From Pacificibacter marinus (GTDB lineage Bacteria > Pseudomonadota > Alphaproteobacteria > Rhodobacterales > Rhodobacteraceae), in NCBI RefSeq assembly GCF_900109555.1, contig NZ_FNZV01000003.1, positions 186,001 through 250,000 of the forward strand: a stretch of DNA of 64,000 bases, read 5' to 3'. Under the pieces are notes generated by a model. That model had not been told where the DNA came from. It ran no database searches and worked only from the letters and a program-made list of their open reading frames with translations. Made by a program: the position numbers and the translations under genes. Of this stretch, positions 3,620 through 10,615 are shown in pieces. Within the stretch, counting starts at the first letter, position 1. Each line of letters opens with the position of its first letter.

Positions 3620-3836
3620 ATGCAAAAATGTCGTGTTCCGATGGGCTTGGTGTTGCGCGCTGCGCTGTGGCTGCGCACGCCCGCTTAAGCGCGTTGTTAT
3701 CCCCTTGGGCTAGAACTCTCGGTGTCTGGGCATGCGCTGCCACGGCTTTCCAGTTGAAAGACCTTTGTTTGGGTCGACGATGTGTTCGTCGCTCCAACTG
3801 CGCATGTGACCTAAGAGATGTGTGAAAGGGGTTCGG

Positions 3837-6128
3837 ATGAACAAGGCCATTACTGAAGGGCTGGTGCTGATGCCGCCAGCGTTCGCGAGCGGTTTGGGCG
3901 TATGGTCCAGCGAAGACGGAACGCCGGGGTCGGCGACCTATGCGGGGGCGGGCAATGCGGCGTTTGTCGCGGCGGATGCTGATTTTGGCGGTGCGCTGGA
4001 AATCTACAAGCAAAATACCACAACCAAATTGCGTTACATGGGTGAGACGCCTTTGCGGCCTGGCATGTATTTACAGGTCACGGCACGGGTGAAAGCGGTG
4101 TCTGGCAATCTGCCGTCTGTGCGGATCGCGGGCTGGGCGGGCAATGCGTCTTTGACCCATGTCAGCGGCGTCACTGAAATCGCTGCTGCGGTGCCTTTGA
4201 CCGCCTATGGTGAGGTTGTCGAAATCTCTGCCATCGTTGGTGTCGGCGCGCGTGGTGGTGTGGATATGCCGTGGGGTCTTGAAACTGTTTATGGCCATTT
4301 CGGTCTTGATTTGACGGGGGCCAATGGTGGCTCTGTGCGGATCGATGATCTTAAAATAGAAGACGTGTCTTCGTATTTTCTGGCTGACAGTGTCGGCGTT
4401 ATTGATGTGCGTGATTTCGGTGCGATTGGGGATGGCACCACATCGTGCAATGCAGCGTTCGGGGCCGCAGATGCCGCTGCCAATGGTCGCAAAGTTTTGG
4501 TGCCTGAGGGCACGTATCGTTTGACCAGCAACTTCACCTTTATCCACGAGCCTATTTTCGAAGGCACGATGGTTATGGATGATCATGTGCGCCTTGCCTT
4601 GCGTCGTGGGTTTCATCTGAACTCGTATATCGACGCGTTCGGTGACGAAGTTTTGGCGTTCAAAAAAGCGTTCCAAGCGCTGGTGAACTACACCGACCAC
4701 GACAGTTTGGATATGTGTGGGCGTCGCATCGAGTTGCCGGGGCCGATTGATTTACAAGCTGCGGCTGAAAATAAAACGACCTTTGAAGTGCGTCGTATGA
4801 TCCGCAATGGGCAATTCAACTTCCAAGCATCAAGTGATTGGGATGTGGAAACCACGACATCTTCTGCGTCGTATTCTGCCGCCAACGGCAAGACGCTGAG
4901 CAATGTGTCAAACGTTGCAAATATCATCACTGGCAGTCATGTTTCAGGCAATGGTGTCGGCCGTGAAGTTTACGTGCGATCTGTGAATGTCGGGGCGCAA
5001 ACGGTGGAGCTCAGCCAGCCGCTGTATGGGCCAAGCTCGAACCAAACATACACCTTTACGCGATTTAAATATGCTCTGGATTTCAGTGGCTTCAGTAAGA
5101 TGTCGCAGTTCGTCATCTCTGATGTCGAATTCTTATGCAACGGGCATGGGTCGGGCATTAACCTGCCCAAAGAAGGCTCGGTCTTTCAAATCAAAGACTG
5201 CCATTTCAAATCGCCAAGCCATCGCGGGATTACATCAACGGGGCGTGGGTGCCAAGACTTGGTGATTGACCGCTGTTTCTTTGTATCCAATGAGCAAAGC
5301 GAGCGTTCAGAAGATCGCCAATCCATCGCGTTCAACGTGAATGCCAACGATTCCAAGGTGCGTGACAGTCGGTTCCAACGATTTGGCCACACGGGGATCT
5401 TGTGCGGGACAGGGCATTTGTTCGTGGGCAACCATTTGTTCCAAGGTGATAACTTTAACAGTAGTCCGCGCGTTGGGGGATTGATCTTTACCTATCCCAA
5501 TGTGAAATCCATCGTCACGGGCAACTACATCGACAACGCGTCTATTGAGATGAACAACGAACACGATGCCGCGCCAGATTTTGGCACCGAGTTTTCGTTT
5601 GGCGCCTTGACCATCACCGGCAACATTTTCATGTCAATCGATAGCGCTGATTGGTTCAGCTATATCGTGGTGAAACCCTATGGTGCGGGGCACTTTATCC
5701 AAGGTCTTTCGGTGCAGGGCAACACATTCAAAGCGATCAACGGTAACATCGATCGAATTGAAAAAATAGATACAAGCTTTGCAACACTCAACATGTCGCG
5801 GATGCGTAATATCGTCTTTGAGGGCAATACGTTCAACGCGATCTCTGATCCGTGCTTCAACCCTGTGTCCTTGGAATTCACCCAATCTACTGCGTCGTCA
5901 CAGTGGACGTTGGACCCCAGCAATTATCTACCGTTTGGCGGCTGGGCGCGGACTGTTGAATCCATGGTCTTTGTCGATGCCTTGACCAACAGCTCTGGCA
6001 GTCAGGTGGGTACAATTCCATATGCGACCGTCAATTACGGCAGCAATTCCGACCAAGTGCGCCTGACATTCCCGCAGGCCACGAAAGGCAAAGTGCGCTT
6101 GAGCGTGCGCATGGACAATCCAGTTTAA
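3837..6128 (+). CDS. Right-handed beta-helix protein, glycosyl hydrolase 28/pectate-lyase-3 related
   Basis: A 763-residue protein of a type recurrent in Roseobacter-group bacteria. Residues 1 to about 185 form a beta-rich module with a carbohydrate-binding look. At about residue 195 comes VRDFGAIGDGTT followed by VLVPEGTYRL, the usual opening of the pectate-lyase-3 / GH28-related beta-helix fold. Many short Asn- and Gly-rich rungs (for example VTGNYIDNASIEMNNEH) then run to about residue 690, with a short C-terminal beta module after them. There is no signal peptide, so secretion would need a non-Sec route, or it may work as a tailspike-like or intracellular assembled factor. The start at 3837 has GAAAGGGG upstream. 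Substrate and catalytic residues could not be assigned. It is monocistronic, with its own terminator. Confidence 0.75.
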   Translation: MNKAITEGLVLMPPAFASGLGVWSSEDGTPGSATYAGAGNAAFVAADADFGGALEIYKQNTTTKLRYMGETPLRPGMYLQVTARVKAVSGNLPSVRIAGWAGNASLTHVSGVTEIAAAVPLTAYGEVVEISAIVGVGARGGVDMPWGLETVYGHFGLDLTGANGGSVRIDDLKIEDVSSYFLADSVGVIDVRDFGAIGDGTTSCNAAFGAADAAANGRKVLVPEGTYRLTSNFTFIHEPIFEGTMVMDDHVRLALRRGFHLNSYIDAFGDEVLAFKKAFQALVNYTDHDSLDMCGRRIELPGPIDLQAAAENKTTFEVRRMIRNGQFNFQASSDWDVETTTSSASYSAANGKTLSNVSNVANIITGSHVSGNGVGREVYVRSVNVGAQTVELSQPLYGPSSNQTYTFTRFKYALDFSGFSKMSQFVISDVEFLCNGHGSGINLPKEGSVFQIKDCHFKSPSHRGITSTGRGCQDLVIDRCFFVSNEQSERSEDRQSIAFNVNANDSKVRDSRFQRFGHTGILCGTGHLFVGNHLFQGDNFNSSPRVGGLIFTYPNVKSIVTGNYIDNASIEMNNEHDAAPDFGTEFSFGALTITGNIFMSIDSADWFSYIVVKPYGAGHFIQGLSVQGNTFKAINGNIDRIEKIDTSFATLNMSRMRNIVFEGNTFNAISDPCFNPVSLEFTQSTASSQWTLDPSNYLPFGGWARTVESMVFVDALTNSSGSQVGTIPYATVNYGSNSDQVRLTFPQATKGKVRLSVRMDNPV

Positions 6129-6691: not shown

Positions 6692-6874
6692 TCTTGCACC
6701 GTAGCCAACCCTTGCGTCAGCATCAATGCGCTTCAGTTTTGTTGGGCGGTTTGTGAGCAAAAACTGTTGGAAAAATACGAGTGCCTTGACGTGCTGCTGC
6801 GCCATTTCGCATAGTGTGTGCATCATTCACGTCGCGGCGCTCATGCGCTTGCTTTGACAAAAAAGGACTATGCC

Positions 6875-7486
6875 ATGACACGTCCACTGCGTTTTGCCGC
6901 CACCCTGTATTGCACCGTTTTCATCACCGCTATGGCCGCACAGGCCCATGCAGACGGCACCGTTAATATCACGCCCGAAACGGGGGTGTTTGAAATACAA
7001 ACCGACGCAGGTGTTCAAACCATCTCGCGCAATCAAGACGAAGCCAATGTGGTCAGTGGCGAATGGGCGCGCACCTCGCGGCCCTGTCCGAATTTTTGCA
7101 TCCAACCGATGCAACCTGCTGACGGGGTGACGACCATCGGCGAATTAGAATTGATCGCGATGCTGCAAGACCCGAATGCAATGGTGATCGACAGTCGGGT
7201 TGTCGCAAATTTTGAAGGTGGCGCTATCCCCGGTGCGGTGAACATTCCCTACACCCAAGCCGCAGATCGTCTGGATGAGCTGGGATGTGAACTGGATTTC
7301 GACGGGTTCATTTGTACAGGCGATGCTGTCAAACCTGTGGCGCTGTATTGCAACGGGCCATGGTGCGGCCAATCCCCCACCGCCGCCCGCCGCATGATCG
7401 CAGCAGGCTTTCCGGCTGAGAAAATTTCATACTACCGCGGCGGTATGCAAGTCTGGCGGATGCTGGGGCTGACGGTGACGGAGTAG
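6875..7486 (+). CDS. Periplasmic rhodanese-domain protein
   Basis: A 203-residue exported protein: an N-terminal hydrophobic signal peptide ends near AAQAHA, followed by about 60 residues of unassigned sequence containing two cysteines (PCPNFC), then one rhodanese domain (VIDSRV, GGAIPGAVNIPYT, active-site loop YCNGPWCGQS, and a final YYRGGMQVW). The active-site loop carries two cysteines, and the first is in the catalytic position. The likely role is sulfane-sulfur or thiol chemistry in the periplasm; no partner gene is adjacent. AAAAGGA lies 7 bases before the ATG. The frame extends upstream to 6818 but without a signal peptide at that start. Confidence 0.85.
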   Translation: MTRPLRFAATLYCTVFITAMAAQAHADGTVNITPETGVFEIQTDAGVQTISRNQDEANVVSGEWARTSRPCPNFCIQPMQPADGVTTIGELELIAMLQDPNAMVIDSRVVANFEGGAIPGAVNIPYTQAADRLDELGCELDFDGFICTGDAVKPVALYCNGPWCGQSPTAARRMIAAGFPAEKISYYRGGMQVWRMLGLTVTE

Positions 7487-7499
7487 GGGGGGCTTCGGG

Positions 7500-8400
7500 T
7501 TATGAAGCTAGAAGCTTGTCCTCAGGAAACTTGCGTTCCCATGTTTCAATGAGAAATAGAGCTAGAGTTGAAGCCGAACCTACGGCTAACCTTGCAATCC
7601 TTGGGTCTAATCTCTGAAATCCTCTTTCTCTTCCGTGCGCTGTTCCTGAATGTGAACGCAAAGCGCCAATTCCTTGTATGGCATTACTAAGCGCACTTAA
7701 GATTGTTCGAACGTCTGCCTGAATCTCAGATTCTTGGACATCTTTTGATGGGGATAGGCCGAGAGGGTCTCGTATCGCTTTGTAGAGGACCTTTATTTCC
7801 ATGGATCTAGGCATGTCAATTTCGGGTCTCGCATTGATGATCGAACGAAATACACTTTCTAGCATTGAGCACGCGGCTGTAACCGCAGCTTCTGGGTCTG
7901 TCTCGAGGTTGTCGAACGCACGCGAGAACTCACGTTCGACAGTATCAAGTGTCCACTCTGAACTAATCTTCATTAGATGCGGGGCTGCTGTGTGGCTTGG
8001 TTGAGTTGCAATTTCCCCCACCAACTTCTCAAATGGCAAATCTTCAATTGATGCTTGGTCGTACAGCGCCGAGACATATTCAAGAGAGATATTCCAAACG
8101 TCTGAGTCAATTTGGCGTTGCGCCTCTTCTAGTTCAGAATTCCGTTCCGAGTTGCGCTTAGACCAAAGTAGCTGGAGCAACTCGATTACCAAGTGTGGGG
8201 GGGGATAGCTCTACAAATGAAAGAAGTCTATTGAATTTGGAGGTGCCTTTTTCGCTAAATGCGTCAGCGTAAATGTTTGTTTCAAAATGATCTTCGAAAA
8301 ATTCTTCAAATGTCCTATTTGAAAAATCTAATACATAACCAGGTTGGGGACAGAACCAGTCTCTGATTTGATCTTTCTGGTAGTGCTTTATTTTTGCCAT
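7500..8400 (-). pseudogene. Abortive-infection C-terminal (Abi_C) family protein, frameshifted in a G8/C8 tract
   Basis: Read as one gene this encodes a 299-residue two-part protein. The N-terminal part has the GYVLDFSNRTFEEFF signature and SKFNRLLSFVE found at the start of Abi_C proteins. The C-terminal part ends with LRSHSGTAHGRER followed by an alanine/leucine-rich helix, the Abi_C hallmark. The two parts are in different frames: the first runs 8400-8158 (80 residues) and the second is open from about 8192 to 7500. The junction is a run of eight G (eight C on the coding strand) at 8197-8204. Removing one base makes a single frame of exactly 300 codons including the stop. The start ATG is one base after the uvrB stop codon and uses a ribosome site inside the uvrB end, so it is translationally coupled to uvrB. 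Whether this is a sequencing error, a true mutation or phase variation cannot be decided here. Confidence 0.78.
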
Positions 8401-8401
8401 C

Positions 8402-10615
8402 CTACCTCTTCCCCCGACGTCCAGAATTCCCGCCACGCATACCACCTCGGCCACCCGTAGAGCGCCCCGACGCCGTCTTGGCATCCGTCACGGCCTTCTC
8501 AACATCCGCTTGTTTCGCCAGAGGGTCTTCGGCCACGGCCAGTTCCACGGCTTCCAGTCGTTTGACTTCGTCGCGCAGGCGGGCGGCTTCCTCGAACTCT
8601 AGGTTCTCGGCGGCTTTGCGCATGTCGGTGCGCAGACCTTCCAGAACGGTCGCAAGATTGCCCCCTGCGAACGGCGCGTCGATGGTGGCGGTGACGCGGT
8701 TCATGTCCACATCGCCTTTGTAGAGCCCCGCCAAAATATCTTCGACGTTCTTTTTCACCGTCTGCGGTGTGATGCCGTGTTCAACGTTATAGGCCATCTG
8801 ACGTTCGCGGCGGCGCGAGGTCTCGCCCATGGCGCGTTCCATCGATCCGGTGATTTTATCAGCGTACAAAATTACGCGGCCCTCAGCGTTGCGCGCGGCA
8901 CGGCCGATGGTTTGAATCAATGAGGTTTCCGAGCGCAAAAAGCCCTCTTTATCGGCATCCAAAATGGCGACCAATCCACATTCGGGAATGTCCAATCCTT
9001 CGCGCAAAAGGTTGATCCCGATCAGCACATCAAACGCGCCAAGGCGCAGATCGCGCAAAATCTCGATACGTTCGATTGTGTCGATTTCAGAGTGCATATA
9101 CCGCACCCGCACCCCTTGTTCATGCAGGTATTCTGTCAGGTCTTCGGACATGCGTTTGGTCAGCGTAGTGACCAAAACACGGGAATTGTTGGCGGCTTGT
9201 TTGCGCACCTCATCCAGCAAATCATCGACCTGTGTGTCCACTGGGCGGATTTCAATCACAGGGTCCAAAAGTCCCGTGGGGCGAATGATTTGTTCGGTGA
9301 ATACGCCCCCCGTTTGCTCAAGTTCCCACTGGGCAGGCGTGGCGGACACGAACACAGATTGCGGGCGCATCGCATCCCATTCCTCGAATTTTAGCGGACG
9401 GTTGTCCATGCATGAGGGCAGGCGGAACCCGTGTTCGGCCAGCGTTGTTTTGCGTCTAAAGTCACCTTTGTACATGCCGCCTATCTGGGGCACAGACACG
9501 TGGGATTCATCGGCAAAAACGATGGCATTGTCGGGGATAAATTCAAATAATGTGGGCGGCGGTTCGCCCGGGGCACGGCCCGTCAGATAGCGCGAATAGT
9601 TTTCGATCCCGTTGCACACGCCCGTCGCCTCAAGCATTTCAAGATCAAAATTGGTGCGCTGTTCAAGGCGCTGTGCTTCTAACAATTTGCCTTCGTTGTT
9701 GAACTGATCAAGGCGCATTTTCAGTTCTTTTTTGATGCTGACAATCGCTTGTTTGATGGTCTTTTGTGGCGTCACATAATGCGAATTCGCGTAGACGCGC
9801 ACCTGTTTAAAGGTGTCGGTTTTGGCGCCAGTAAGCGGGTCAAATTCGGTGATGCTTTCCAATTCTTCGCCAAAGAAAGACAGTTTCCAAGCGCGGTCAT
9901 CCAAGTGGGCAGGCCAGATTTCCAAGCTGTCGCCCCGGACGCGAAATGTGCCGCGTTGAAACCCATGATCGTTGCGTTTGTATTGCTGGGCAATGAGATC
10001 GGCGATGACTTGGCGTTGGTCGTATTCACCACCGACATGCAAATCTTGTGTCATCGCGCCGTAAGTTTCTGCCGATCCGATGCCGTAAATACAAGACACC
10101 GAGGCAACGATGATCACGTCATCACGTTCCAACAAAGCGCGGGTCGCGGAGTGGCGCATGCGGTCGATCTGTTCGTTGATCTGGCTTTCTTTTTCAATAA
10201 ACGTGTCTGAGCGCGCGACGTAGGCTTCTGGTTGGTAGTAGTCGTAATAGGACACGAAATATTCGACGGCGTTTTCGGGAAAGAACCCTTTGAATTCGCC
10301 GTAAAGCTGGGCTGCCAACGTTTTGTTGGGCGCTAGAATGATCGCAGGGCGCTGGGTTTCTTCAATGACTTTCGCCATGGTGAATGTTTTGCCCGTACCT
10401 GTTGCACCGAGCAAAACCTGATCATGCTCGCCGTCTTTGATGGCGCTTGAAATTTCTTTGATCGCTGTCGGTTGATCGCCTGCGGGTTCAAAGGTCGAGT
10501 GCATGATAAACCTTCGCCCGCCTTCAAGTTTGGGGCGTGCACTGACATCGGGGGCAGGGTGGGCTAGGGTGACACTGTCATCGATTGGGCGTTTGTTGTT
10601 ATGGGCGTAGGGCAT
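8402..10615 (-). CDS. uvrB: Excinuclease ABC subunit B
   Basis: DNA-damage-recognition helicase-like subunit of nucleotide excision repair; it receives DNA from UvrA and recruits UvrC. Seen: Walker A GATGTGKT at residues 70-77, the Tyr-rich beta-hairpin ([15 protein letters not shown]), helicase motifs including DESHVSVPQ and the motif VI stretch QTIGRAARN, and the UVR domain near the C-terminus ([16 protein letters not shown]). It has 737 residues from the ATG at 10615, preceded by AAGGA; the frame is open to 10660, but no good ribosome site supports an earlier start. The C-terminal tail is Gly/Arg-rich. A LexA-like half-matching box lies upstream. The frameshifted Abi_C gene follows immediately. 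Confidence 0.97.

Follow-up and report, generated by a model that had tools for sequence, protein, structure and literature searches.

A frame-broken AbiJ-like gene adjoining uvrB in a slot of variable content in Rhodobacteraceae

AbiJ is a HEPN family with an Rx4-6H motif, and many HEPN families carry a second motif, Ex3[KR], as set out in the parts of the source that we draw on (PMC3710099). A tie between bacterial defense and DNA damage is provided by the operons of CapK and CapS, whose response to mitomycin requires both uvrA and uvrB, according to the sections of the paper used here (PMC13373217). As for homopolymers, a Campylobacter phage-receptor gene is given as an example of a phase-variable gene in the portion of the text consulted (PMC5808241).

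The window analyzed here, a stretch of 64,000 nucleotides from Pacificibacter marinus (3.87-Mb genome, draft of 43 contigs), carries uvrB on the minus strand at positions 8402 to 10615. Its start was inferred to be the ATG of MPYAHNNK at 10615, in a frame that is open to 10660, and the protein is 82 to 85% identical to the UvrB proteins of Ruegeria and of further family members. The uvrB stop codon (TAG, 8404 to 8402) is separated by the single base 8401 from an ATG (8400 to 8398) on the same strand, just as the first-pass annotation, made from the sequence itself, had described. From this ATG, ordinary reading follows frame A (8158 to 8400, minus strand), the N-terminal part of an Abi_C gene, which enters a C run at 8204 to 8197 and terminates in the wrong frame at 8158 (TAA, 8160 to 8158) after 80 residues in total. 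The remainder of the gene lies in frame B (7500 to 8195, minus strand) and ends at a TAA (7502 to 7500). Two further statements of that annotation, that the frames would add up to exactly 300 codons once one base is dropped and that they meet in an eight-G run at 8197 to 8204, proved accurate: positions 7500 to 8400 comprise 901 bases, or 300 codons with the stop included plus one base, and the plus strand has exactly eight Gs at the site of the frame change (Cs on the coding strand). A convergent rhodanese-like gene, named by sight, lies on the plus strand at 6818 to 7486, 13 bases from the Abi_C stop, and forms the distal border of the slot. Farther along, at 3822 to 6128, the window encodes a 768-amino-acid protein, a relative of which stands directly behind uvrB at locus L047 (72%) and another near the Abi_C gene at L026 (41%). 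As its relatives adjoin uvrB or Abi_C, we count this protein as part of the wider neighborhood of the slot.

The frame B product matches Pfam Abi_C (PF14355) with 72.7 bits (E 2.6e-20; positions 3 to 83 of 83), against a curated threshold of 24 bits, and the matching domain spans 7545 to 7787 (minus strand; residues 137 to 217 of the frame B protein). Three of the relatives described below (L008, G282, and G455) also match Abi_C, at 66.6 to 72.8 bits. Against the PADLOC AbiJ profile, frame B scored 48 bits (E 3.4e-13), covering profile positions 134 to 280 of 281 with the N-terminal half of the profile uncovered; the L008 protein scored 46 bits. The window protein contains the catalytic-type HEPN motif R-x6-H (RSHSGTAH; 7635 to 7658, minus strand) and the second HEPN-type motif E-x3-[KR] (ESVFR; 7845 to 7859, minus strand), and R247, H254, and E181 of these motifs are invariant in five relatives. 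The predicted protein thus has both of the HEPN motifs described in PMC3710099, and by its sequence it is Abi_C/AbiJ-like.

The N-terminal domain is harder to place. The 65-amino-acid N fragment matched no Pfam or PADLOC family above cut-off, and it aligns at 71 to 83% with the N termini of L007, L008, G282, and G286 and at 40% with that of G455. Since no Pfam model matched this domain in the proteins scanned, it was not placed among AbiJ-NTD1 to AbiJ-NTD5. The domain recurs at seven further loci (L253, L254, L255, L258, L259, L260, and L262) that have no match to the Abi_C part, and for this reason it is probably a module, which would fit a build of sensor plus effector. An AlphaFold2 model based on three sequences (L008, L007, and window frame B) was all-helical with a pLDDT of 45, too poor for a fold search, and a profile search of solved structures gave a best E value of 0.17.

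Among named organisms, the closest relatives come from Ruegeria: a search of public genomes returned R. intermedia DSM 29341 (L007) and R. pomeroyi SZCCDBG043 (L008). When 394 genomes of the family were searched, 26 had a match, with full-length relatives in G282, G286, and G455. All five relatives carry the N- and C-terminal parts in a single frame, and we therefore regard the two frames of the window as one Abi_C-type gene, in agreement with the first-pass annotation. The genes in L008, G282, G286, and G455 are complete; that in L007 is open, but its 3' end differs (last residues VSCKTSDLI) and lies near a contig end. All six full-length genes point in the same direction as uvrB and begin 1 to 8 bases behind its stop: 1 base in the window, 8 in L007, 4 in L008, 7 in G282, 3 in G286 (TTG), and 2 in G455 (TTG). 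The start codons in G286 and G455 were set by alignment, and in G455 a GTG overlapping the uvrB stop is an alternative. Placement behind uvrB therefore holds in every one of the six genomes, that of the window included, in which a gene of full length and no less than 39% identity was found. Homologues behind uvrB in related strains, for which the first-pass annotation had proposed to look, thus exist in five other genomes, 2 to 8 bases behind the stop; their absence, which it had named as part of a refutation, is not what was found. Because one-piece relatives occupy this position elsewhere in the family, we take the location to be meaningful.

Beyond these genomes, matches were partial or distant. 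The other 22 of the 26 family matches start no earlier than residue 57 of the frame B query, and in a search of the class, where 31 of 385 genomes matched, only the C-terminal or the N-terminal part was matched, the window aside. No uvrB was found beside the partial-match loci in flanks of up to 1.5 kb, some of them shortened by contig ends (the G776 locus set aside). Among plasmids, 244 records matched, all below 60% identity; of the best 20, 18 covered 46 to 65% of the query, and two of the 244 covered at least 80% of it, at 27.9%. These represent a distant full-length relative on two Phaeobacter inhibens plasmids; one of the two records was inspected, and uvrB is absent there from the surrounding 4 kb. 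Four phage records matched, all below 60% identity, among them an unannotated phage-like record with 21.5% over 92% of the query, and no relatives were found in viral contigs. Within the genus of the window, the gene is missing from all 19 other genomes.

On balance, and with modest confidence, we favor the reading that this is an accessory, AbiJ-like single gene in a variable slot behind uvrB, which a recent and private break in a C8 run has turned off here. In the intact protein, a linker would join an N-terminal domain of roughly 90 residues to the Abi_C/AbiJ domain at the C terminus, presumably an RNase of the HEPN kind. From its position, the gene would be expressed as part of the uvrB message. 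Judging by the family, the N-terminal part would act as a sensor of infection or damage, upon which the HEPN part would cleave RNA and halt growth. In the window copy, the C8 break would part the N-terminal domain from the HEPN domain, and the full protein would not be made; such a break may mean that a costly gene was lost in a single event, or it may be a state of the tract from which slippage could restore the frame.

The slot was examined by locating uvrB in 20 genomes of the same genus (window included) and reading up to 1.5 kb downstream. The rhodanese-like border was found within this distance in 9 of the 20 genomes (8 of 19 when the window is excluded), and these nine have nine different contents between the border and uvrB: Abi_C in the window, a MrcB_N protein in L045 (9.6e-44), an Mrr-type gene in L059, which clusters with that of L053 (Mrr_cat, 6.1e-20), a NYN RNase in L055 (4.1e-10), proteins of 206, 129, 96, and 186 amino acids without a Pfam match in L046, L049, L050, and L060, respectively, and nothing in L048. 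Several contents recur in the genus, namely, the NYN gene (L052 and L057), the Mrr-type gene (L053), and the 96-amino-acid type (L051 and L056). On the 5' side, the neighbor of uvrB is the same small gene, which we take to be NDUFS4-like, in each of the 18 genomes of the genus that were examined (G006 lay outside the set) as well as in G282 and G286. With nine contents on one side and one invariant neighbor on the other, the 3' side of uvrB turns over while the 5' side is constant.

To this we added the slots of family genomes and of the two Ruegeria, giving 106 in all (window, L007, L008, L045 to L063, and L127 to L215). The open reading frames (ORFs) of the slots were listed mechanically, and false ones are possible; L195 (G286) and L197 (G455) were dropped from the lists because their stretches lack the uvrB end. 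Profile scans of 94 of the 103 proteins behind uvrB (those of L007, L008, L047, L048, L063, and L202 were excluded, as was one ORF of the pair in each of L146, L154, and L188) yielded Abi_C, counted once (G282), Abi_alpha, Mrr_cat, MrcB_N, and TIR_2 among the matches, as well as an FGGY sugar kinase, LysR regulators, and others. Ten same-direction neighbors, picked for their closeness to uvrB and hence giving a yield that is not a rate, were scanned singly, and six had no Pfam match. In another genus, an unrelated Abi_alpha gene (PF14337; L186:109-864:+) lies 4 bases behind the uvrB stop, and in L182 a DUF5677 gene follows at 7 bases. Four ORFs without a Pfam or PADLOC match (L190:106-867:+, L204:114-1265:+, L160:2368-2988:-, and L206:2436-2996:-) start no more than 10 bases from the stop of uvrB and are candidates for unknown defense genes. 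The last codons of uvrB contain a ribosome-binding-site-like GAGGT immediately before the stop, both in the window (8402 to 8410) and in relatives, the terminal bases being GAGGTAG, GGAGGTAA, and similar in several carriers. The uvrB end itself may therefore be a predicted ribosome-binding site for docking genes, which could explain why they dock there.

Constant borders, changing contents, and more than one defense family give the slot the features of a defense hot spot. This brings up the alternative that the link to uvrB is a hot-spot effect and nothing else, with any gene able to land there and damage control irrelevant, a reading that we consider only a little short of probable. It is favored by the metabolic contents, such as the FGGY sugar kinase, and by orientation: the first ORF of at least 100 amino acids behind uvrB runs in the same direction in 68 of the 106 slots and in the opposite direction in 38, and because genes enter in both orientations, uvrB may border a hot spot without being a selected partner. 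What speaks for more than chance landing is the tight, codirectional spacing of all six full-length Abi_C genes, together with the unrelated Abi_alpha gene at a similar distance in another genus; the distant 28% relative on a plasmid without a nearby uvrB, for its part, counts against the tie to uvrB.

Damage control would leave its trace in LexA boxes, for which the alphaproteobacterial consensus is GTTC-N7-GTTC. Of 23 regions preceding uvrB, 18 contained a match with one mismatch, against 3.47 in base-shuffled regions. In 14 of 18 same-genus relatives (L219 to L233 except L225), the sequence GAACAAAAAGRGATC stands upstream of uvrB, and this conserved GAACAAAAAGRGATC is probably a LexA box. 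Of the four Abi_C carriers examined besides the window, three (L007, L008, and G286) have LexA-like boxes of other forms, and G282 has none upstream of uvrB. The window's own match is weak and differs from the conserved box in both sequence and place, and no such box stands upstream of uvrB in the three closest sisters of this genome (G009, G010, and G002), which again favors a mere hot-spot effect. Across the whole window, there were 30 near-matches to the consensus, fewer than in shuffles (mean, 47.5). Expression of Abi_C tied to damage through uvrB transcription is thus plausible in some relatives, as far as promoter sequences can tell, and unsupported in the window genome, given the deviant match there and the lack of any box in the nearest sisters. 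The boldest proposal, that uvrB docks unrelated suicide-type defense genes at translational-coupling distance, so that repair and suicide would come from one damage-induced message with the homopolymer as a reversible safety catch, we regard as a long shot.

The accessory nature of the gene is consistent with its composition and divergence. Its two fragments have GC contents of 34.9% and 47.2%, compared with 57.1% over the final 900 bases of uvrB. At the protein level, the window and four carriers share 66 to 70% identity in Abi_C, and the carriers share 62 to 73% among themselves; over the C-terminal 300 residues encoded by uvrB, the corresponding values are 80 to 81% and 87 to 91%. G455 stands apart, with 39 to 40% in Abi_C and 79 to 83% in uvrB. 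Because the identity of Abi_C stays flat while the uvrB of the window diverges further, the gene looks exchanged, on the strength of these comparisons; the flat identity could also stem from a fast-evolving ancestral gene with many losses. The longest words shared with the uvrB 3' end in the 106 slots were about as long as in shuffles, with no sign of an attachment site, and, as no repeated uvrB end was found, recombination in the flanks would be the simplest route of exchange.

Turning to the break itself, the C run corresponds to S-P-P-H codons in four relatives (L007, L008, G282, and G286), in which this stretch is spelled TCGCCCCCGCAT, TCACCTCCTCAT, TCTCCACCTCAC, and TCTCCCCCGCAC. These four have at most five consecutive Cs at the site and G455 lacks the motif, so that the eight-base run is private to the window genome among the six carriers. 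The first-pass annotation had suggested that the tract might switch the protein on and off by slippage; since no relative carries a long C run, a conserved switch is not supported. Of 75 positions at which all five relatives agree, the window copy retains the shared residue at 71, and in the same test the four other carriers (G455 left out) retained 71 of 75 or 76. By this comparison, no decay beyond the single break is visible, with which a recent mutation, a reversible tract state, and a misread tract agree equally well. We consider the break to be probably an ordinary recent loss. As ordinary translation would give no full protein once the N-terminal part is split from the HEPN part, the gene is, by its reading frames, off in the window genome, and the frame B product might still arise by reinitiation or slippage.

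Of the explanations specific to the break, the one that fares best after recent loss is a sequencing or assembly error, by which the tract length was misread and the gene is intact in the cell; we think this unlikely but worth serious weight. A single break, located in a homopolymer within an otherwise conserved gene of a 43-contig draft, is what such an error would look like. Runs of at least eight G/C are not rare in the 3.87-Mb genome (55 distinct contexts), and among eight loci inspected by eye, the Abi_C gene included, one further split gene was found, which also speaks for misreading: an accessory, phage-type integrase at L102 (G000:C29:137179-140186), split at an eight-base G/C run (tract 1501 to 1508), whose downstream piece matches Phage_integrase (3.7e-12). 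Against this, the frame was kept in all 18 contexts that have a clear codon-usage signal on both sides, the other 37, with the Abi_C gene among them, falling below the signal threshold on this criterion. Since G/C runs generally leave genes unbroken, wholesale misreading is disfavored, and one misread tract would agree with these counts as well.

It is more doubtful that we are dealing with a phase-variable defense gene, whose product would be switched on and off as the tract length shifts among cells of the population. The presence of a C8 run within a gene in which everything else is intact would fit, as would the cost of such a gene, whose off state would be favored in the absence of phage, but the five or fewer consecutive Cs in relatives argue otherwise. 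In the Campylobacter phage-receptor gene, the frame reportedly breaks in a poly-G/C tract. Programmed slippage, in which ribosomes would change frame on the C run so that the eight-base tract yields a certain amount of the full-length product, is very improbable, for although +1 is indeed the shift required at UCC CCC CCC ACA and CCC-C is a slippery site for +1 frameshifting, the relatives need no shift to encode the same protein. In the parts of the literature drawn on here, +1 frameshifting is a topic for proline tRNAs (e.g., PMC4519876 and PMC7577736).

We thus return to recent loss of an accessory, AbiJ-like gene, and in our view the slot and the tight docking to uvrB are of more interest than the frame break. 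A core repair gene of Rhodobacteraceae is followed by a variable slot whose contents include Abi-type and restriction genes, and this offers a simple, testable case for defense tied to damage. Among the entries listed in searches of open-access papers, none names the uvrB slot.

Compared with the AbiJ HEPN family (PADLOC AbiJ, with PF14355 at the C terminus), the window protein is alike in its C-terminal domain, in R-x6-H, and in E-x3-[KR]. Like the AbiJ proteins with various N-terminal domains in the sections of PMC3710099 used here, it has an N-terminal domain fused in front; unlike AbiJ as described, this domain matches no Pfam model, the gene stands behind uvrB, and the window copy is frame-broken. 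With the Campylobacter phage-receptor gene, it shares a frame break in a poly-G/C tract, whereas the window tract is not conserved in relatives and is seen at a single length in the one genome of its species covered. The CapK/CapS operons share the idea of a lethal defense tied to DNA damage, as far as the relevant sections of their description go; they have a dedicated regulator pair, whereas the window gene is only placed behind uvrB. A fixed place, changing contents, and several restriction or Abi-type genes are features that the uvrB slot has in common with the core defense hot spots of Pseudomonas aeruginosa (PMC10250203) and the defense islands of E. coli (PMC10121019), to judge from the portions of these two papers drawn on. 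Unlike the hot spots in those portions, the uvrB slot often holds one gene, some of its contents start 10 bases or less behind uvrB, its contents are only partly defense-like, and its border is uvrB.
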